Virus record (IMG/VR): IMGVR_UViG_3300046694_000269
Coordinates: 1 to 35,026 of that record
Length of the DNA stretch: 35,026 nucleotides
Source of the DNA: a virus
Reading direction: 5' to 3' (one strand)
Shown here piece by piece: positions 107 through 34,539 of the stretch. A model generated the notes under the pieces. That model did no database searches and was not told where the DNA came from. It saw only the letters and a program-made list of their open reading frames with translations. Every line of letters starts with the position of its first letter. Positions within the stretch are counted from its first letter, which is position 1. The translations under genes were made by a program, and so were the position numbers.

Positions 107-1147
107 ATGTTGTTAAATTTTGATTTGGTAGTATTTAGTTTAATTATGGTTACACGGACTAAACATGCATGTATTATTTGTGAATATCTATTACAAAACA
201 AATTTATTGATGGTCACAATTATGAAAAAATATGTGGTTCTATTTGCCGTGAATCAAATTTTGACTTAGATTTTAATAAAAATTTATCAAAATATTTAAT
301 TATTTTTTGCCTCAATCTTAAAAAGAATAATCTTGCTTTAAGTATGGGGGAAATTAATTTATCCCGATTATGGATACTAGAACTAGGAGCCTTAATACAA
401 CCTAATTACCTTTTAGCATTGCAGTTTATTATTGACCATCAAACGCATACATTTCCATTTGCAAAAATTGAGATGTTATTTGATAAACATTTTTATTTTA
501 CTATTGAACCTTTACTATTCCAGAATCCTACTGATGAAGGTTATATTTTTTCTGTAGAATATCACTTAAGTCAATTATTCAATATTGTTAAAACTTTAGT
601 TCCATTAATTGATTTTCCAAAAAAAATATCTGTAACATTCCCCCCTAATAATAAACTAAACTTCTACAAAGAATTTTTCAATTGTGAAATAATTTATAAT
701 TCACAAGAAAATAGGATTTCTTTTGGGATATCTAGATCTAAACTTACGGAAAAATTAACACCCATAAGTTTGTCTACAATTGAAGATAAAATTATACATT
801 TTTTAGAACGTTCAAAAGCAATTCAAAAATCCGACAGTGAACTTAAGAATAAAATTAATTTTATTCTTAATCACTCTGGAAATGACTTGCCTGATGAAGA
901 TACAGTAGCTAATCAGCTAAATATGCATCCTCGCACCCTTAGAAGGAAGTTGAAAGCTGAAGGAGAAACATTTAGAAATTTAATTACTGGATATAAAATG
1001 AAAAAAGCAATCAACTTACTAACTATGACAAAGCTAAATTACAAGCAAATAGCTTATCAACTCGGCTTCAAAACTAGCACTAGTTTCAGCAAATCATTTA
1101 AAAGTTGGACAGGTTATTCACCACAGAAATTTCGCCATAGCAATTAA
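107..1147 (+). CDS. AraC-family transcriptional regulator
   Basis: This is a 346-residue DNA-binding regulator. The last ~95 residues (about 250-343) form an AraC-type double helix-turn-helix, with the recognisable stretches VANQLNMHPRTLRRKLKAEG, YKQIAYQLGF and the closing SFKSWTGYSPQKFR. The preceding ~200 residues fit the arabinose-binding-like N-terminal domain of the long AraC/OruR-like regulators, which bind a small ligand. The first ATG (107) is used here, but an ATG at 146 (residue 14) is a credible alternative; neither has a good Shine-Dalgarno. It ends two bases from a convergent membrane-protein gene. No target operon is visible in the window. It lies outside the recognisable phage genes and is probably host chromosome. 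The family call is firm; the ligand and regulon are unknown. Confidence 0.88.
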   Translation: MLLNFDLVVFSLIMVTRTKHACIICEYLLQNKFIDGHNYEKICGSICRESNFDLDFNKNLSKYLIIFCLNLKKNNLALSMGEINLSRLWILELGALIQPNYLLALQFIIDHQTHTFPFAKIEMLFDKHFYFTIEPLLFQNPTDEGYIFSVEYHLSQLFNIVKTLVPLIDFPKKISVTFPPNNKLNFYKEFFNCEIIYNSQENRISFGISRSKLTEKLTPISLSTIEDKIIHFLERSKAIQKSDSELKNKINFILNHSGNDLPDEDTVANQLNMHPRTLRRKLKAEGETFRNLITGYKMKKAINLLTMTKLNYKQIAYQLGFKTSTSFSKSFKSWTGYSPQKFRHSN

Positions 1148-2601: not shown

Positions 2602-3123
2602 ATGAATCACTTCATTAATGCATTAGAATCATCAATAAATACAGAAAATTGGTATTCAGTTTTGTTCATTTCACTAACTTTACCAGATATTTGTGGAAAG
2701 ATTGATAATCCTGATGCTGGCTCACAACGTCGCACTATTTCATGGTTTGATCAATATCTAAAACCTATTTATACAAAAAAGATTGGGAGTGACAAAGAGG
2801 TACATACTTTTTTAAGTGGGTCTGATTTCTATGCTTTACGATGTGCTTACCTTCATGAGGGTAGTGATATTATAGCCACGCAAAAAGCTCAGAAAATTCT
2901 AGAGAGATTTAAATTTGTTCAACCTATATCAAATAAATCAATAATACATAAACTCCAAAAGGAAAAAACTCTTATGCTCCAAGTTAGTGAGTTTGGTAAA
3001 GAGATTCTAGAGGCTTTAAAGCAGTGGTCTCAAGACATCAAAAATGATCGAGTTAAATTAGAAAAAATTAACAACCTCTTAAATATTGAAATAATTGATT
3101 TTTCTAAGGGATTTTCATATTAA
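2602..3123 (+). CDS. HEPN-motif protein, possible RNase cargo gene
   Basis: This 173-residue protein has a good start: an AGGGGAAATA stretch precedes the ATG. The middle holds FLSGSDFYALRCAYLHEGSD, in which R80 and H85 form an Rx4H motif, the catalytic signature of HEPN-fold RNases. The N-terminal part (NWYSVLFISLTLPDICG) and this block look like a conserved family usually annotated only as hypothetical. The fold is predicted all-helical apart from the loop. It is transcribed opposite to the phage late operon, directly after the umuC remnant and just before an 18-bp inverted repeat. This is the usual position of lysogenic-conversion genes beyond the lysis cassette. HEPN proteins often act as toxins or anti-phage effectors; that role here is inference. 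Confidence 0.6.
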   Translation: MNHFINALESSINTENWYSVLFISLTLPDICGKIDNPDAGSQRRTISWFDQYLKPIYTKKIGSDKEVHTFLSGSDFYALRCAYLHEGSDIIATQKAQKILERFKFVQPISNKSIIHKLQKEKTLMLQVSEFGKEILEALKQWSQDIKNDRVKLEKINNLLNIEIIDFSKGFSY

Positions 3124-3157
3124 TAAGATGCAATGCTCCTTTTAGAACGCATCATGA

Positions 3158-3209
3158 TTACCTATATTAAGATAGTTATTGATCACAATGGCTATCTTAA
3201 TTTAGGTAA
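3158..3209. repeat. 18-bp inverted repeat, 16-base loop
   Basis: Arms at 3158-3175 and 3192-3209 pair over 18 positions with a single mismatch. The left arm starts TTACCTATATTAAGATAG and the right arm starts CTATCTTAAT. The loop is 16 bases and contains TGATCA. The only T-rich sequence after it is weak (AATAAAGATTT). It could be a terminator for the HEPN-like gene, an operator, or a recombinase or transposon end. The length and precision exceed those of the phage's other terminators. Confidence 0.7.
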
Positions 3210-3368
3210 ATAAAGATTTAAGATTGGTTACTGCTAAATGATTATCTGAATTAGTCGTTATAGAAGATAAATGAATAAAAATCTATTTAAATGCAAAGAA
3301 CTCATAACTATAAAAAATTGAGTATAAATTATATACTTAAAATAGATTTTGTTCTAAAAGTAAAAAAT

Positions 3369-4061
3369 ATGCGTACTAAAGACTTCGTACAGACAATAAT
3401 TTTAATTTGTGTGTTTATTACAATTATATTATTTGGATTCATTTACTATTTATTGTTGAATGAGGCTCAAAATTCACTTATTAAGGATACACTTTCTTTA
3501 GTAGCAAGTTTTTTTGGAGGTATTAGTACATTAGCTGCTGCATATGTTGCTACCTTTTTATTCAATGATTGGAAAGTACAACAAAATTTTCTAAATAAAC
3601 TCCAATTAATTAATAAAACTACTGAAGCGGCTGGAACCTTTTTAGCAAAAATATCAAAAGTTGTTGAATTTGTTGTACAAATAAAGCATGAAGCGAAAGA
3701 TATCATGTTTGATGGTGATAAAGACGGTTTAAAAATGAAAAAAATTAATGAACTATATATCTTATTAAATAATGAAAAGATGGAATACGTTAGAAGTTTT
3801 CAAAATTTAGAATCACATATTTTTAGGTATGGAGTATCTTGGAAAGATCCCACCTTCCCTGAAATGCATAAAAAAATCCAATTAATGAACAATATATTGC
3901 AAGAGAGTTTCCAAAACTATGAATTAGCTACTCATGTAGTACCTATTTTTCAAATTAGTGATGAAATTTTACTCAAAACTAAACATATGATGAAATATAT
4001 TCAATTAGAAATGCTCCCTATTTTAGATAAAAAGATGGCTCCTGATTCTGAAGAAGCCTAA
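3369..4061 (+). CDS. Two-helix membrane protein with helical cytoplasmic domain
   Basis: The open frame runs from 3291, but the ATG at 3369 (230 residues) is the more likely start because it places a membrane helix at about residues 9-30 behind a short basic N-terminus. A second helix lies at about 45-65, followed by a charged and mostly helical C-terminal domain of about 160 residues. Neither start has a strong Shine-Dalgarno. I do not recognise the family. It follows the HEPN-like gene on the same strand after ~245 bases that hold an inverted repeat, and it converges on the phage lysis genes. The architecture of a 2TM anchor plus soluble helices resembles the membrane half of several two-gene defence modules, but no specific motif supports that. 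Confidence 0.6.
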   Translation: MRTKDFVQTIILICVFITIILFGFIYYLLLNEAQNSLIKDTLSLVASFFGGISTLAAAYVATFLFNDWKVQQNFLNKLQLINKTTEAAGTFLAKISKVVEFVVQIKHEAKDIMFDGDKDGLKMKKINELYILLNNEKMEYVRSFQNLESHIFRYGVSWKDPTFPEMHKKIQLMNNILQESFQNYELATHVVPIFQISDEILLKTKHMMKYIQLEMLPILDKKMAPDSEEA

Positions 4062-4503: not shown

Positions 4504-5049
4504 TTACATCGCCACTCGGTTGCTGATCCAGCCATAAAAAAACTGTTCTTGCGAGGGATTGCGTTCACAGATTTCGATATAACGTTGGCCTTGCATGATG
4601 TTGAGTACTCGCACTAAGACTTTCTCGCCTTCTTTGCCACGCTTGGCCAAATAGGTTTTTAGAGCTCTCAACGTTTCCGAGCCATAAACTCCATCAATCA
4701 CAAGATCAGGAAAACCGGCTTTACCTTGATTATTCAGTAAGTTTAATGCACGTTGTAAAAGTGGTTTAGCAAATCCAGTACCACAATTAACGCCAGTGTC
4801 TAAAAGCTCTTCAGCAACTAACGAGCTAATTACATTTACCTGATCAAATCGTGGATCTATCCAGTACTGCTTTTTATAAATGGCTTTGGCTAAATCAAGC
4901 GGTAAATCTTTCATGTTGCCCTTAAAGCCGTTTGTACGTGCTACTGCTTCAGTAATGCCGTATTTAGTTGCACCTCCTCGATCTGCTGGATTATTTACAT
5001 AACCGCCTTCGCGTTTAATGAGTTCTTCAAGATATTGTTCAATGTTCAT
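4504..5049 (-). CDS. Endolysin, GH108 N-acetylmuramidase
   Basis: This 181-residue lysozyme cleaves host peptidoglycan at the end of the lytic cycle. The N-terminal half carries the GH108 signature KREGGYVNNPADRGGATKYG, with E14 as the expected catalytic acid. The second half, from about residue 90, fits the partner peptidoglycan-binding domain (PG_binding_3), including the GVYGSETLRALK block. No signal peptide or SAR segment is evident, so export should depend on the upstream holin. Length is normal for the family. The preceding intergenic region carries a terminator hairpin and the following gene is DUF6527. The identification is firm. Confidence 0.93.
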   Translation of the reverse strand: MNIEQYLEELIKREGGYVNNPADRGGATKYGITEAVARTNGFKGNMKDLPLDLAKAIYKKQYWIDPRFDQVNVISSLVAEELLDTGVNCGTGFAKPLLQRALNLLNNQGKAGFPDLVIDGVYGSETLRALKTYLAKRGKEGEKVLVRVLNIMQGQRYIEICERNPSQEQFFYGWISNRVAM

Positions 5050-5636: not shown

Positions 5637-6026
5637 TTAACTGTTTTCGATGTCACTTCTGGCTTTTTTAACTTCCTTGATTACTTCAATAATCGTTTTA
5701 CCTTCCTGCTTATTGATAAAGTTAAATGTCCACCGGACCAAAGCCCAACCAGGAATACCACAAACAAAGAAGAATCCACCAAGTGCCATCATGCCCCAAA
5801 CATCTGTAATCCATTCATGAAGCCCCCACTTCACAATGATGAATGAACCACCAGCCAAACTTGATACAACGGTACAAATGAGCCCCACTGCCCACTCTTG
5901 AGGTGAACGTGGCATGCGAGTCATCAATACAACTGCTGCAACTAAGGCAACCGCTAAGGTCACCATAATTGCTGCCCCATAAAATTTTAATAATGCTGTT
6001 AAACCGCTTGTAGAAACTGGTTCCAT
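5637..6026 (-). CDS. Putative holin, three membrane helices
   Basis: This 129-residue protein has three predicted membrane spans at about 13-35, 45-65 and 76-97, followed by a charged C-terminal tail rich in Lys and Glu (EVIKEVKKARSDIENS). That matches a class I type holin, which opens the inner membrane so that the endolysin can reach the cell wall. GGAG lies about ten bases before the ATG. It follows the tail tip gene and precedes the endolysin region, the expected place for a holin. Sequence-level family membership is not clear, so the call rests on topology and position. It could instead be a phage inner-membrane protein of unrelated role. Confidence 0.7.
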   Translation of the reverse strand: MEPVSTSGLTALLKFYGAAIMVTLAVALVAAVVLMTRMPRSPQEWAVGLICTVVSSLAGGSFIIVKWGLHEWITDVWGMMALGGFFFVCGIPGWALVRWTFNFINKQEGKTIIEVIKEVKKARSDIENS

Positions 6027-23450: not shown

Positions 23451-24419
23451 TTAATCTGTACAACTCTTAAAATTAAAAAGTAATGTTGTCTTATCTTGAG
23501 TACTTGAAAAACTATAACTTACATCACTTGTATTAAAATCAATTCCATCTTTACTAAATTTACGACAACTGAGGTTTCCCCACATATCCTCATAACATAT
23601 AGAATATATTTTCGGACTTACTTCTTCTTCTTTAAGTAAATAGTTTCCAAAAGTTTCTCTGCACAAAGTATTTGATATGCCAGATAGAAGTGACAATTCA
23701 ACCTGATTTGTTGGTCCTACCATCCCAATCCATTGATGAATTTTAAAGCTTATATCAGAAAATTTAATATTATTAATTGTGAGCTTATCTAAATTGAAAT
23801 TTTCCACATCCCGAATATTTATTTTTAAAGCTTTAGAAACTGCTAAATCTTCAAAAAATTTCTTTTTATCAATAACATCCTTTAAGTATTTTTTAGAAGT
23901 ATTTAAATAATAATAACCTTTTCCCGATATACAAAACACAGAAATCTTAGGAGCATGAAGGAACTTATCATCGTATTTTTCGTATCTTTCCAATTCATTT
24001 CCATCTATATCACTTGAGAATGAGAACATTACAGTTGGAGCTTTCCCCCCCATATTACGATATTTTTCAAATTTCTTAATCGTTGACTTTAATTCCCCTG
24101 CATTTATCGTGCTTTTGACTTCGAATATATACCTTGTAGCCTCAATTGGAAGAAAGGCAAGATCCTGTTTTATATAAGGAGGTAGAATTTCATCGTCGTA
24201 AATAAAAAAATCTGTTTCATTTGATTGCTCATTTTTTGAGTTTTCAATAATTCCTTTAGAAATTTTGTATTTGCTAGGAATAACATCTTTTATTAGATTA
24301 ATTAACTCTTGTTCATTTAATCCACCCTTTACACCTTGATGTACAACATTTCTATTAATCTCAAAATCAGCTTTTAAAGAAGATACTTTTGCATTTATTT
24401 TTTCAGAAATTATTCCCAT
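23451..24419 (-). CDS. DUF6602 protein with PD-(D/E)XK-like core
   Basis: This 322-residue protein fits the DUF6602 family in its first ~180 residues: NEQELINLIKDVIPSKYKI, a KGIIEN turn, ETDFFIYDD and YIFEVKSTI. D70 and the E100-V-K102 pair on adjacent strands make a convincing PD-(D/E)XK nuclease core. The last ~140 residues are of unknown fold. DUF6602 proteins are found scattered in mobile elements, so a DNA-cleaving or restriction-like role is reasonable but unproven. It has its own candidate promoter with flanking direct repeats and its own terminator. It is more AT-rich than the capsid genes around it, which marks it as inserted cargo. Confidence 0.7.
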   Translation of the reverse strand: MGIISEKINAKVSSLKADFEINRNVVHQGVKGGLNEQELINLIKDVIPSKYKISKGIIENSKNEQSNETDFFIYDDEILPPYIKQDLAFLPIEATRYIFEVKSTINAGELKSTIKKFEKYRNMGGKAPTVMFSFSSDIDGNELERYEKYDDKFLHAPKISVFCISGKGYYYLNTSKKYLKDVIDKKKFFEDLAVSKALKINIRDVENFNLDKLTINNIKFSDISFKIHQWIGMVGPTNQVELSLLSGISNTLCRETFGNYLLKEEEVSPKIYSICYEDMWGNLSCRKFSKDGIDFNTSDVSYSFSSTQDKTTLLFNFKSCTD

Positions 24420-24511: not shown

Positions 24512-25294
24512 TTAGGTCTTTTCAGTAATTTCATTCAATAATTTTTTTATTAAATTACAAGTTGCTTCATGTTCATCTTCAAGATTTTTAATGCACTTTG
24601 TAACTATTGATATTTTATCTACAGAAAGTGTATGAAGTGAGCTTTTCAAAGATTTTAGACTAGTTACGAGAAATTCAAGATAAAGGGTAACGCGATAGTT
24701 TTGTTTAAGTGAATGAGCTTTTTCAATCAATTTAACGGCTATGCTTGTAGTGAGCAGATAGTTTGGTTTCGCTAACCACTTCTCATATTGAAGCTCTAGA
24801 ACTTCAATACTTATAAATTTACTTTCTGAATGATAGCTATTTAAATTATATTTAAGTCCATCTAAATCTTTGGCTACATCTCCCCTTATTTTTTTATTTT
24901 CATAGTCTATTTTAATATTTGTTTGTTTTAAAATTTCAGCAATCAATTCATTTTTTCCTACATTTAACTCTCCTATAAGCTCCTTTTTTGAAGCATTTAA
25001 AGTTGTTAAGATTAGATCTTTAAAATATTGTGTCTCTTTCTCTTGATTTTTAAAGTTAGTAAACCAGTTATAACCTACCAATAGTATAACAATGCTGAAT
25101 ACTCCACCCAGCGACCAATAAACGGTAGTTAGAAAATTATCTTGATAACTTTTCATAACTTCAACTTGAGCTTTTAAGACTTCAATTTGAGTATTTGCAG
25201 CCTCTAAATTTTTCTGAAGTAATGTATTGTCAACATCCGCTCCATAAGCAGTAGCTGAAAATAAAATAAGTAAAGTAATGATGATTTTATTCAT
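24512..25294 (-). CDS. Membrane-anchored coiled-coil cargo protein
   Basis: The frame is open from 25312; the ATG at 25294 is preferred because it begins a clean Sec signal (MNKIIITLLILFSATAYG, cleavage likely after residue 18-19). The protein is then 260 residues. A coiled segment at about 25-50 precedes a membrane helix at about 58-78 (WSLGGVFSIVILLVGYNWF). The remaining ~180 residues are charged helices on the cytoplasmic side, with a KKELIGELNVGKNELIAEIL repeat-like stretch. No family is recognised. It lies between the gpF-like gene and DUF6602 as inserted cargo, with its own terminator. It could anchor or sense something for its neighbour. Confidence 0.6.
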   Translation of the reverse strand: MNKIIITLLILFSATAYGADVDNTLLQKNLEAANTQIEVLKAQVEVMKSYQDNFLTTVYWSLGGVFSIVILLVGYNWFTNFKNQEKETQYFKDLILTTLNASKKELIGELNVGKNELIAEILKQTNIKIDYENKKIRGDVAKDLDGLKYNLNSYHSESKFISIEVLELQYEKWLAKPNYLLTTSIAVKLIEKAHSLKQNYRVTLYLEFLVTSLKSLKSSLHTLSVDKISIVTKCIKNLEDEHEATCNLIKKLLNEITEKT

Positions 25295-25372
25295 TCTAAA
25301 GTTTGCCATCATAAGCCAATGTTATTACTAACATTACTACACCAACTAACTATTAGAAACCAAATAAAATCA

Positions 25373-29515: not shown

Positions 29516-30156
29516 CATGTGATAACGCAGTTTCCACAGCATTTTGATATATCTAAATCAGAAACAAACGGCGGGTTTTTAGCAACTTCAATAAGCCGCT
29601 TAACGTTTTCATTTGCTCCCCAGCGCTTAACAACACCGATAAACTCTTCCACATCGTGTCCAGCTAAATAGTGCTTTGGTAAGCCAGTATGATCACTATA
29701 AATAATCTCACCGTCCGAGTCTCGCTCTACACCGATGTGATAAAGCTCATGTTCTAGCAAAGCACAGAATTCACTATCATTGGCTTTATCGCAAAAGGTA
29801 GCATCGATAGTGATTAAGTAAGTCGGTACAAATCCAAACCAATCTCGCATTTGTTGTTCTTGGCGAGCTTTCTTCCATCCGCCTTGTTGAAACATAACCT
29901 TTTCACATTGGCCTAACACCATACGCTTAGCTCTCGTATATGCAGAAGATGCCCAAGCAAATGCTAGAAACTCTTCATTATCATGAAGTAACTCAGCGAT
30001 ATGATCATGGTCCGGGTTATGTAGAGGTCCACCGAGCGTAAGAAAATTAGCAACAACCCATTTCTTTAAATCTGGTGCCGGTATTAAACGGATTGCTTCC
30101 TCTTCTTCAGCTTGATCAATAAAGTCTGGTTGCGGGAATGGTCTGATCTGATCCAT
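29515..30156 (-). CDS. Putative phage metallopeptidase
   Basis: The 213-residue protein has a zinc-protease motif HELYH (H136, E137, H140) in CALLEHELYHIGVERDSDGE. A possible third ligand lies in the LAGHDVEEFIGVVKRWGAN block. This corresponds to the putative phage metallopeptidase family often found beside terminase genes. The C-terminus has a CCGNC cluster that could bind metal. Its start lies within the last 41 bases of the nuclease gene. Substrate is unknown. Confidence 0.85.
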   Translation of the reverse strand: MDQIRPFPQPDFIDQAEEEEAIRLIPAPDLKKWVVANFLTLGGPLHNPDHDHIAELLHDNEEFLAFAWASSAYTRAKRMVLGQCEKVMFQQGGWKKARQEQQMRDWFGFVPTYLITIDATFCDKANDSEFCALLEHELYHIGVERDSDGEIIYSDHTGLPKHYLAGHDVEEFIGVVKRWGANENVKRLIEVAKNPPFVSDLDISKCCGNCVIT

Positions 30157-30592
30157 TAAATATTTGCCTCTTCAAGTTTTTGAGCCACTCACTAGCGTAT
30201 TCAGTTCTTAACTGTAATGGTCCAGTATCATCGATCCTACATCTTGTAGCTGATTCTATACGAACTACTGTATAGCCCATCTCCTCAGCTACGTCGTAAC
30301 GATCAAGACTCCAAGCTTTATTCTTGAGCTTACCCTTTCGGCCACCTGACCAAGGACCTCCAGCAATTTCAACTAAAATACGATGCTCTATTAAATGAAA
30401 ATCAAATCGCCAGTGTTTAGTTGATTTAATTTGAAACATCTTTTCGTATTTAATTTCCAGAACATCTAAGGATTGAGTAAATTCTTCCTCAGCTTCTAGA
30501 TATTTTTGAGTAGCCTTAGGCAATGGTCTGCTTTTAGATTTTGTTTTAGGTGCTTTTTTTCTTGTTAGCCAAAAATAATCTTTAATGTCCAT
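30116..30592 (-). CDS. Vsr/DUF559-like PD-(D/E)XK nuclease, copy 1
   Basis: This 158-residue basic protein has the Vsr/DUF559-type core: WRFDFHLIEHRILVEIAGGP, where D64 and E75 are likely metal ligands, then WSGGRKGK and YDVAEEMGYTVVRI. A conserved-looking charged N-terminus precedes it. It is similar in layout and in the GGxWSGGR motif to the nuclease at 34077-34469, so the phage has two related enzymes. Likely roles are branched-DNA or nick processing before packaging. It overlaps the metallopeptidase gene by 41 bases. Confidence 0.75.
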   Translation of the reverse strand: MDIKDYFWLTRKKAPKTKSKSRPLPKATQKYLEAEEEFTQSLDVLEIKYEKMFQIKSTKHWRFDFHLIEHRILVEIAGGPWSGGRKGKLKNKAWSLDRYDVAEEMGYTVVRIESATRCRIDDTGPLQLRTEYASEWLKNLKRQIFNGSDQTIPATRLY

Positions 30593-32069: not shown

Positions 32070-32100
32070 TTAAAAAAGCCCATCGTTTGATGAGCTTTTC
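32070..32100 (-). terminator. Rho-independent terminator after the 2TM-GAF module
   Basis: GCTCATC pairs with GATGGGC (one G-U) around AAAC, followed by T6 on the minus strand. It lies ~80 bases after the 83-residue partner gene and ends the two-gene unit. Confidence 0.85.
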
Positions 32101-32181
32101 ATGTTGATCTAATGCAATAACCACATTACGACCATTCTATAAATACTTTACTTCAATTCCCAAAATAATGGAATAGGGAAT

Positions 32182-32433
32182 TTAATGTGAATGAACAAAC
32201 ATTTCCCTGATACGTAACCAGAAGCTTTTTTGTTGATAAGTAAAGGTGTTAAGAGCAGCTTTGGCCTCCTCAACGCTTTGCAGCAACTCACGACGGCGTT
32301 CTTCCTCAGATTTATTAGAATATGGTGATTTACTAACAATATCTGGAAAATCTTTTTCAGTTTGAATAGTTAACGTATGTTGAGCGTTTTTATATAAATT
32401 TATTGCATGTGCAGCAGATTGATTTTTTCTCAT
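32182..32433 (-). CDS. Small partner protein of the 2TM-GAF gene
   Basis: The 83-residue charged, helical protein (MRKNQSAAHAINLYKNAQHT; a central SEEERRRELLQSVEEAKAAL) starts at an ATG that overlaps the stop codon of the preceding membrane gene by one base. Such coupling usually means the two products work together in a fixed ratio. It ends with a basic/aromatic SFWLRIREMFVHSH tail that could touch the membrane. No family is recognised. No other gene separates it from the terminator. Confidence 0.65.
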   Translation of the reverse strand: MRKNQSAAHAINLYKNAQHTLTIQTEKDFPDIVSKSPYSNKSEEERRRELLQSVEEAKAALNTFTYQQKSFWLRIREMFVHSH

Positions 32434-33401
32434 TATAAAACCTTCTTTTTAAGTTGATCTAAAGAATGCTCTAAAGCTAAGCGAGATTTAAAGAAACCCA
32501 GTATCCATTCCAAATAGGCTACATTTTCTTGAACAATAACATTTTCTCGCTTAATAGCTATAGAAATAATAAAAATAATACTATTACTATTTATGCTATG
32601 AATTGGAGCACATACCTGACACCATTTTTCAGAAGGGTCTGACTGACCTTTAATGTACATTATATCAGCAGTAGATGGCTTTTGTATTTCATTTTGTGTA
32701 TCGGCAACAATAATAATTTTATTTTGTTTAATACATTTGGAAAAAGTGCTGTTAGGGTCTCTTAGTTCAACAATGCTTGTCCGTGGCTTAGTGTCATATG
32801 GGCTATGGCATACCCAGTCATCAATATTTGAATTAACTACTCGCATTAAAGCAACTTTTATTGTTTCATTGGGATAGATAGCAATTAGGCAATCACGTAG
32901 GGATTCAATAATTAATTCAATCTGTTCCTCAGGATGTGTTATTCCATCAAATAATGTTTTATGTTTTGGCTTTTGAACAGCAGGTGTATTTACATATCTA
33001 TGGGCAAGTGCTGCAAATCGTTTTCGTTTAGCAATTACGACATCTTCAATTTTTTGTAACACAACTAAAGCAATTTGATATTTTGCCTGTAAATCCTTAT
33101 GTTCTTTCTCAATGTTGTCACACTTCTTGTTTAAAAATGAAAGTAGGACACCATATAAACCAGAAATGAAAACAGTACCCATTACAATTGAACCAGCATT
33201 AGTTATAATAAATTCAGCTGGTAGTTTGAAATTAGATTTAAATGTTTCCGCTTGTTTATCATTGCCTAAAACAAATAAAATATAAGCATTAAAAGCAGTT
33301 AATAAAATTATTACTAATTTAGTAACCCAGTGCTCTAACCATCTTTTAAATGCCTGATATATACCTTTCTCAATCAAAACATTATCAATCTTATTTCCCA
33401 C
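32433..33401 (-). CDS. 2TM protein with GAF-like sensor domain
   Basis: This 322-residue protein starts at GTG with AAAGG nine bases upstream. Membrane helices lie at about 28-45 and 64-90, followed by a coiled segment to ~125. The C-terminal ~180 residues have the alternating strand/helix pattern of a GAF-type ligand domain: IELIIESLRDCLIAIYPNET, a central RTSIVELRDPNSTFSKCIKQ, and CQVCAPIHSINSNSIIFIIS. That is a sensor attached to a membrane. It has its own promoter and terminators, lies in an AT-rich island and is coupled to a small partner gene. The GAF call rests on pattern and is tentative; a defence or signalling role is inference. Confidence 0.65.
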   Translation of the reverse strand: MGNKIDNVLIEKGIYQAFKRWLEHWVTKLVIILLTAFNAYILFVLGNDKQAETFKSNFKLPAEFIITNAGSIVMGTVFISGLYGVLLSFLNKKCDNIEKEHKDLQAKYQIALVVLQKIEDVVIAKRKRFAALAHRYVNTPAVQKPKHKTLFDGITHPEEQIELIIESLRDCLIAIYPNETIKVALMRVVNSNIDDWVCHSPYDTKPRTSIVELRDPNSTFSKCIKQNKIIIVADTQNEIQKPSTADIMYIKGQSDPSEKWCQVCAPIHSINSNSIIFIISIAIKRENVIVQENVAYLEWILGFFKSRLALEHSLDQLKKKVL

Positions 33402-33444
33402 TATTAGGCCTTTCTAAATATAAGTGCTATTTTAAAATCAGCAC

Positions 33445-33472
33445 ATAGTAGCTCATCGTTACAATTTTGCAA
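33445..33472 (-). promoter_or_regulatory. Promoter of the 2TM-GAF module
   Basis: On the minus strand TTGCAA (33467-33472) and TACTAT (33445-33450) are separated by 16 bases. The -10 lies ~45 bases before the GTG start and just beyond a bidirectional terminator. This makes the two-gene unit an independent transcript, able to act in the lysogen. Confidence 0.6.
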
Positions 33473-33473
33473 T

Positions 33474-33504
33474 AAAAACTTATATTTTACATATACAAGT
33501 TTTT
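33474..33504. terminator. Bidirectional terminator behind the 184-residue gene
   Basis: AAAAACTTATAT pairs with ATACAAGTTTTT (one mismatch), so both strands end in a T run. It ends the upstream leftward operon and isolates the 2TM-GAF promoter. Confidence 0.65.
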
Positions 33505-33519
33505 AACCGTTAACTACAT

Positions 33520-34074
33520 TTATTTTGAAGTATGTTCTTCCCCAATCTTCATTAAACGACGATATTCCCCAATGCCATTTTCAATTTCCCATCTGGCATT
33601 TACTAAAGCAACTTCCATAAGCTTTTCATAATCCTTCCAAGTTTTACGGTAAGCATCATACGTTAAATAATGAGCTGCAATGCCTGCATAATACATACGG
33701 CCTTTACTGGTAAATACTTCATTGAGATTAGGGTCAATCTCAAAATCAAGAACAAGCCGTGCAACCATCTCTGCCAATTTTTCTAAAGGAATAATATTTG
33801 GCTTCTGATCTTTTTCATCAGCCGCACGAACCATAATTTTAGCCAAGTGCTTTTGTACAAATAAATATTCCTGCTTCGCCTTATGTCCCCATACATAAAC
33901 GGATGCAAGCGCTTTAGCTAGTGGAGTATCAATATTCTCAAACGCAGCACAACGCACTTCCCATGCTGCAACATCATCGATACTACTTGAAAATAATTGT
34001 TCATAATTTGGTGTCTTGACACGCATGTGCTGACCTAACCATTCAAGATTACTTAATTTTTCAGTTGTCTTCAT
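33520..34074 (-). CDS. Hypothetical phage protein, 184 residues
   Basis: The frame allows GTG 34080, but ATG 34074 has GGCGGGG better spaced and gives 184 residues. The product is helical and soluble, with a VYVWGHKAKQEYLFVQKHLA segment and a C-terminal ARWEIENGIGEYRRLMKIGE. No family is recognised. It overlaps the stop of the second nuclease gene or nearly so, which links it to DNA metabolism. An antiterminator or late regulator would fit the position at the end of an early operon, but no motif shows it. Confidence 0.7.
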   Translation of the reverse strand: MKTTEKLSNLEWLGQHMRVKTPNYEQLFSSSIDDVAAWEVRCAAFENIDTPLAKALASVYVWGHKAKQEYLFVQKHLAKIMVRAADEKDQKPNIIPLEKLAEMVARLVLDFEIDPNLNEVFTSKGRMYYAGIAAHYLTYDAYRKTWKDYEKLMEVALVNARWEIENGIGEYRRLMKIGEEHTSK

Positions 34075-34076
34075 TT

Positions 34077-34469
34077 TCACCCCGCCAATTGCTCAATTTG
34101 TTTAATCGCCACGCCCGCTTTAACTTGCTCTGTACTGAACCGTAAAACTGTAAAACCCATCATTGCTGCCGAGTTATATTTCTCCATATCCCCTAAATAG
34201 CCTTTACCTCTTGTATGACGGCCTCCGCTCCAGATCCCGCCCTCCACTTCAACCAGAGTCTTTGTACCTGTAATCAGAAAATCTGCTCTCCATTTACGTG
34301 TTGGATGGAATTTATATTCCTGCTCAAAACTGATCTTGCATGCTCTTAAGTGCGTTGCCAGTACCGTCTCACCTTCACTTTGCTGTCTGGCACTTTGCTT
34401 TGCTGAACGGCGTTTCTTTGTCTTCACTGGAAATAATTCACGATATTCAGCTAAACTCATGCTAGACAT
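34077..34469 (-). CDS. Vsr/DUF559-like PD-(D/E)XK nuclease, copy 2
   Basis: ATG 34469 is chosen because AAGAGG lies just upstream; a start at 34499 is less likely. The 130-residue basic protein has E34 in QSEGE, D63 in KWRADFLI and E74/E76 in LVEVEGGIWSGGRH, the metal-binding core of a Vsr/DUF559-type nuclease. KYNSAAMMGFTVLRFS closes the fold. It shares layout and the GGxWSGGR motif with the gene at 30116-30592. Possible roles are Holliday-junction or replication-intermediate processing. It is coupled to the 184-residue gene by a TGA overlap and to a 25-codon ORF upstream. Confidence 0.8.
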   Translation of the reverse strand: MSSMSLAEYRELFPVKTKKRRSAKQSARQQSEGETVLATHLRACKISFEQEYKFHPTRKWRADFLITGTKTLVEVEGGIWSGGRHTRGKGYLGDMEKYNSAAMMGFTVLRFSTEQVKAGVAIKQIEQLAG

Positions 34470-34539
34470 ACAAACCTCTTTCAAAAGTGTAGAGATCACA
34501 TTCCAAGAGCGCTACGTTGACATCGTAGAGGTCTGTCAT
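34462..34539 (-). CDS. Tiny 25-residue ORF coupling two phage genes
   Basis: Its ATG overlaps the stop of the preceding gene as ATGA, with AGGGGG close upstream. Its stop TAG lies inside the first codons of the nuclease gene. The peptide is MTDLYDVNVALLECDLYTFE and five more residues. The chain of overlaps suggests translation, perhaps only to carry ribosomes to the nuclease start. No function is recognisable. Confidence 0.4.
   Translation of the reverse strand: MTDLYDVNVALLECDLYTFERGLYV

Follow-up and report, generated by a model that had tools for sequence, protein, structure and literature searches.

Two coupled genes of the analyzed phage, encoding a 322-aa membrane protein and a basic 83-aa partner, form a discrete low-GC cargo (moron) unit of a temperate Acinetobacter-type siphophage. 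The window, i.e., the whole stretch of DNA analyzed here, is a complete virus record of 35,026 bp; both its gene content and its DNA matches correspond to Acinetobacter Vieuvirus-type temperate siphophages. The pair most likely changes or protects the host bacterium of the phage; of the roles considered, defence or superinfection immunity comes first, with a chance somewhat short of even, as suggested by the architecture, the site, and the alternative cargo. Prophage cargo as a kind is known; the protein family is undescribed in the libraries searched. The coordinates of the features are given in Table 1.

Table 1. Features of the cargo site in the window, in the order of transcription.
Feature	Position	Strand	Details
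phrog_5656 gene	33520..34080	-	in the place of the Q antiterminator; borders the cargo site upstream
AT-rich hairpin	33473..33505	-	weak terminator-like element or insulator; -10 kcal/mol, z -4.1
Putative promoter	33445..33472	-	TTGCAA (33467-33472), 16-nt spacer, TACTAT (33445-33450)
Membrane protein gene	32433..33401	-	322 aa, GTG start; 2TM, helical linker, GAF-like domain
Partner gene	32182..32433	-	83 aa, basic, pI 9.4; amphipathic C-terminal half
Conserved non-coding block, putative late promoter pR'	32129..32175	-	TATTCCATTAT...GTAAAGTATTTATAGAATGGTCG; borders the cargo downstream
Intrinsic terminator, putative phage tR'	32073..32100	-	-14.6 kcal/mol, z -5.2

The scan of IMG/VR with a pattern for the pR'-like block matched 36 contigs. 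In 32 related contigs the joint is empty, the stop codon of the phrog_5656-type gene lying 1 nt ahead of the block. This gap spans 1,344 bp in the window and 1,351 bp in L035 (the same phage as L001), and in both it holds the pair; in L037 and L038 (L029 and L027, respectively) it is 721–723 bp long and holds one different gene of 200 aa. The pair is also carried by L002 (L036), as read directly, the L036 contig being too short for the gap to be measured. The totals are thus five phages with an occupied joint (four of them measured by the gap) and 32 with an empty one. The GC content of the pair unit is 31.2%, compared with 40.7% for the structural genes; the other cargo-like genes of the window are also low. 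Since the joint is exact, empty in these 32 contigs, and filled with other cargo in two phages, the assignment of the pair to prophage cargo, proposed in the initial annotation, is strongly supported.

The alternative cargo (L027:4626-5228 and L029:4654-5256) has its own upstream hairpin. The C-terminal half of its product shows a partial and distant match to the PADLOC model PDC-M14B (E 4e-6 and 2e-5); the PDC label denotes a phage-defence candidate.

The family phrog_5656 bears a function-less label and is probably an unrecognised family of Q-type antiterminators, as its genes lie 1 nt from the promoter/terminator-like element in the empty contigs, and as its place in relatives L015 and L018 is held by genes of phrog_79 (the "anti-termination protein Q-like" family). 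The block that follows the stop codon of the partner (TTCCTATTCCATTATTTTGGGAATT...GTAAAGTATTTATAGAATGGTCG) is nearly identical in five phages, and a strong terminator comes next. Position and conservation suggest that block and terminator are the pR'-tR' on which Q-type proteins act. The terminator is present in relatives without the pair, and hence belongs to the phage.

Of the terminators initially placed on both sides of the pair, the downstream one is real, but it is the phage's own; upstream there is only an AT-rich hairpin, present in two of the three carriers (the window and L001) and absent in L002. The two hexamers of the proposed promoter are present, each matching the consensus at 4 of 6 positions, but the site is below the scan threshold, and its score is no better than chance (15 promoter-like matches are seen in the region, with 15.4 expected by chance). 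The block holding it is nearly invariant, 47 of 51 positions being identical in all three carriers, compared with approximately 62–66% identity at third codon positions, and phages lacking the pair yielded no match to this 51-position block. Because the block is conserved and restricted to carriers of the pair, and the upstream hairpin occurs in two of the three, self-contained transcription of the pair is likely. The description of the unit as autonomous is only partly right: the promoter is deduced from conservation, and the 3' terminator is the tR'-like element of the phage. An operator-like dyad near the transcription start is degenerate in L002, and is hence not claimed.

The order of elements can be compared with that established for Stx phages, Q–pR'–tR'–cargo (PMC8065619). 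The morons of lambdoid phages, e.g., Stx phages, are likewise variable low-GC units beside Q and the late promoter, with promoter-like signals of their own (PMC8065619). Here, however, the cargo sits between Q and pR', upstream of the putative late promoter rather than downstream of it, which leaves it outside late control; a further difference is that the protein family is undescribed.

Both proposed open reading frames are real genes, as shown by codon-position patterns and dN/dS values against two other IMG/VR phages, L001 and L002, that carry both genes (identity to the pair of the window 84/83% and 96/86%). The differences are mostly at third codon positions; dN/dS is approximately 0.1 for the 322-aa gene and 0.04–0.2 for the 83-aa gene. 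The genes are under purifying selection and are coupled, base 32433 being common to the stop codon of the first and the start codon of the second (TAATG, a 1-nt overlap), in keeping with the overlap given in the initial annotation.

The two-gene neighbourhood is conserved in all three phages, which are the known carriers of the pair, and a similar layout is found on the conjugative plasmid pS22303 of Shewanella baltica OS223. There, a 324-aa homologue (28% identity over 263 aa, E 7e-30), with hydrophobic segments at matching places by hydropathy, is followed by an overlapping small ORF of 56 aa, whose product has no detectable relatedness to the 83-aa partner. The search of the phage collection yielded no relative; neither did scans of species genomes with short peptide patterns, by which distant relatives may be missed, and literature searches turned up no description of a prophage pair of this 2TM-GAF type. 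A gene lying approximately 500 bp upstream of the Shewanella homologue (gene coordinates L003:3831-5333) weakly matches the Mrr restriction endonuclease domain (E 0.008, below the cut-off).

The architecture initially read from the 322-aa sequence holds for the GTG start, the two hydrophobic segments (residues ~29–47 and ~72–90 by hydropathy), and the helical linker; sequence comparison leaves the GAF domain unproven. The phage protein has no significant match to Pfam GAF or to any PHROG, NCBIfam, or PADLOC family, and the Shewanella homologue matches GAF_2 at E 0.03–0.1 (15.0 bits, with a cut-off of 28.6). Comparison of the GAF part with seven E. coli GAF segments and 124 decoys by hhalign gave no separation, nothing scoring above the decoys, and the PDB sequence search returned coiled-coil chance matches only. 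The structural model is compatible with a GAF fold, albeit at low confidence. The model of the C-terminal domain, built from three sequences (pLDDT 58.6), has the topology H-E-E-H-H-E-E-E-E-H, as in a GAF domain. For this model, the first-ranked Foldseek match is the GAF domain of a Geobacter membrane protein (E 0.011), and most of the top 50 PDB structures in VIA-align 2 are GAF domains (Z 8.0–9.8), with S. aureus fRMsr (3ksg) superposed at 3.2 A over 137 residues. The full-length fold (pLDDT 57.7) was left out of structure searching. The C-terminal domain is thus probably GAF-like; by model comparison its fold resembles that of fRMsr, the phytochrome GAF, and the NifA GAF, although those comparisons have no significant sequence match behind them, and here the domain is fused to membrane helices and comes with no output domain.

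The C-terminal domain is the best-kept part of the protein, with dN of 0.05–0.08, compared with 0.14–0.19 in the first 100 residues (the membrane part). Two cysteines of the protein, C223 and C264, are shared with the Shewanella homologue, a feature that would fit the sensing of redox state or of a ligand. From the charge pattern, the GAF-like domain lies on the cytoplasmic side, and the probable arrangement is that of an inner-membrane protein with two helices, a short (~20-aa) external loop, and a cytoplasmic GAF-like domain on a helical stalk.

The 83-aa partner belongs to no significant Pfam, PHROG, NCBIfam, or PADLOC family. Its sole PADLOC match, DrmE (E 0.013), covers a short stretch and was judged to be due to chance; its apparent relatives L009-L013 are chance NKSEEERR matches inside a marine phage protein of ~750 aa.

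As to function, we tentatively favour lysogenic-conversion cargo that most likely serves defence or superinfection immunity and does so with no nucleotide cyclase. In such a prophage-borne device, the pair would be expressed in the lysogen from its own putative promoter; the GAF-like domain would sense a small molecule or an infection-associated change; the signal would travel down the stalk to the membrane helices, whose response might perturb the membrane or block a competing phage; and the basic partner may bind and restrain, or else transmit, the signal. Defence is the leading guess because of the PDC-M14B-like alternative cargo and because anti-phage systems are documented to collect in short swap loci flanked by conserved prophage genes, where membrane proteins are often thought to be the effectors (PMC9122126). 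The hotspots of P2-like, P4-like, and K139-like prophages are likewise short loci between conserved genes with swapped cargo (PMC9122126), and the present joint resembles them in this, one of its alternative occupants being similar to a PADLOC defence candidate; it differs in phage lineage, in the joint itself (Q | pR'), in its mostly empty state, and in having no validated defence gene.

Defence is weakened by the lack of sequence match to any known defence family; by PDC-M14B being itself a candidate only, partially matched; by the low confidence of the models (pLDDT 58) with no hhalign signal; by the small number of carriers; and by a promoter that consensus scoring does not raise above chance. 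A wider proposal, in which a GAF-like sensor directly gates a two-helix membrane effector with a small coupled regulator, as an undescribed cyclase-free prophage immunity system distributed on phages and conjugative plasmids, and in which the Q | pR' joint is a hitherto unrecognised cargo site of Acinetobacter phages that collects such systems, is less probable than not.

The comparison with Pycsar made in the initial annotation does not extend to membership. The transmembrane effectors of Pycsar and CBASS have the same general plan, i.e., membrane helices fused to a ligand-sensing domain, but the sensor here is GAF-like rather than CAP-type or SAVED, and PADLOC gives no match for the 322-aa protein. 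Neither the Pycsar pyrimidine cyclase (PF00211, Guanylate_cyc) nor the CBASS CD-NTase (PF18144, SMODS) was found in the window, the two phage records (which may be fragments), or the Shewanella plasmid, and the positive controls of both searches matched. As no cyclase of the Pycsar/CBASS type was found in any carrier record, the likeness to Pycsar is limited to the general plan.

GAF domains typically sense small molecules, and many non-defence sensors use them. It is thus conceivable, if rather unlikely, that the pair serves lysogenic conversion of another kind, with a membrane sensor tuning host physiology (envelope, metabolite, redox) for the lysogen and the small protein acting as output or adaptor. 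The strong conservation of the GAF part and of the two cysteines is consistent with this, and morons with their own promoters are usually of benefit to the host (PMC8065619); on the other hand, neither protein has a kinase, cyclase, or DNA-binding output domain, and other phages have the PDC-M14B-like gene at the same joint.

A toxin–antitoxin or addiction pair, in which the basic 83-aa protein neutralises a toxic membrane protein and the prophage or plasmid is thereby stabilised, is improbable: the two genes are small, coupled, and prophage-borne, with a similar layout on a conjugative plasmid, and an operator could lie in the conserved promoter block, but neither protein matches a TA family, the small protein encoded next to the Shewanella homologue shows no detectable relatedness to the 83-aa protein, the toxin-like gene is first and large, and the operator is putative only. 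Least probable, and very unlikely, is a part in lysis timing or late-gene control, suggested by the place between Q and the late promoter and by a remote structural resemblance between the GAF-like model and the T4 holin T periplasmic domain (Z 9.2), since 32 related phages lack the pair, the phage already carries lysis genes of its own at the opposite end (lysozyme-like, 4504-5049; membrane protein, 5637-6026), the charge pattern indicates a cytoplasmic domain, and the unit is upstream of the putative late promoter, not under it; the holin-like reading raised by the structural match was rejected on the first three of these grounds. Defence or immunity is accordingly ranked first, followed by the non-defence sensor and then the addiction pair.

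Whatever the function, the joint is a precise site in a common Acinetobacter prophage group, mostly empty and holding cargo of unrelated genes in a few phages. Its occupants form a small set of candidates for phage-resistance assays, one of which resembles a defence candidate, and the same joint data mark phrog_5656 for attention as a probable antiterminator family. If the pair does protect lysogens, it would represent a sensor–effector design without a second-messenger enzyme.

Several other genes of the window deserve mention. Two copies of a phrog_503 / DUF559-type nuclease gene flank the cargo region (30116-30592 and 34077-34499, minus strand). The left end carries low-GC genes of opposite polarity (2602-4061 and 107-1147, plus strand) that encode a phrog_18591 protein, a putative two-helix membrane protein, and an AraC-type regulator; these are either further cargo or host sequence. 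Between the structural genes lies a low-GC gene (23451-24419, minus strand) for a DUF6602 / PD-DExK protein resembling nucleases of the NucC type (Pfam DUF6602, 1e-20; PADLOC PD_DExK, 3e-32, and NucC, 2e-19), which is likely a second defence-like cargo. It adjoins a gene (24512-25312, minus strand) for a 266-aa protein without a family match, in which a hydrophobic N-terminus is combined with a coiled coil and one additional membrane segment; this protein may be the partner of the DUF6602 protein.
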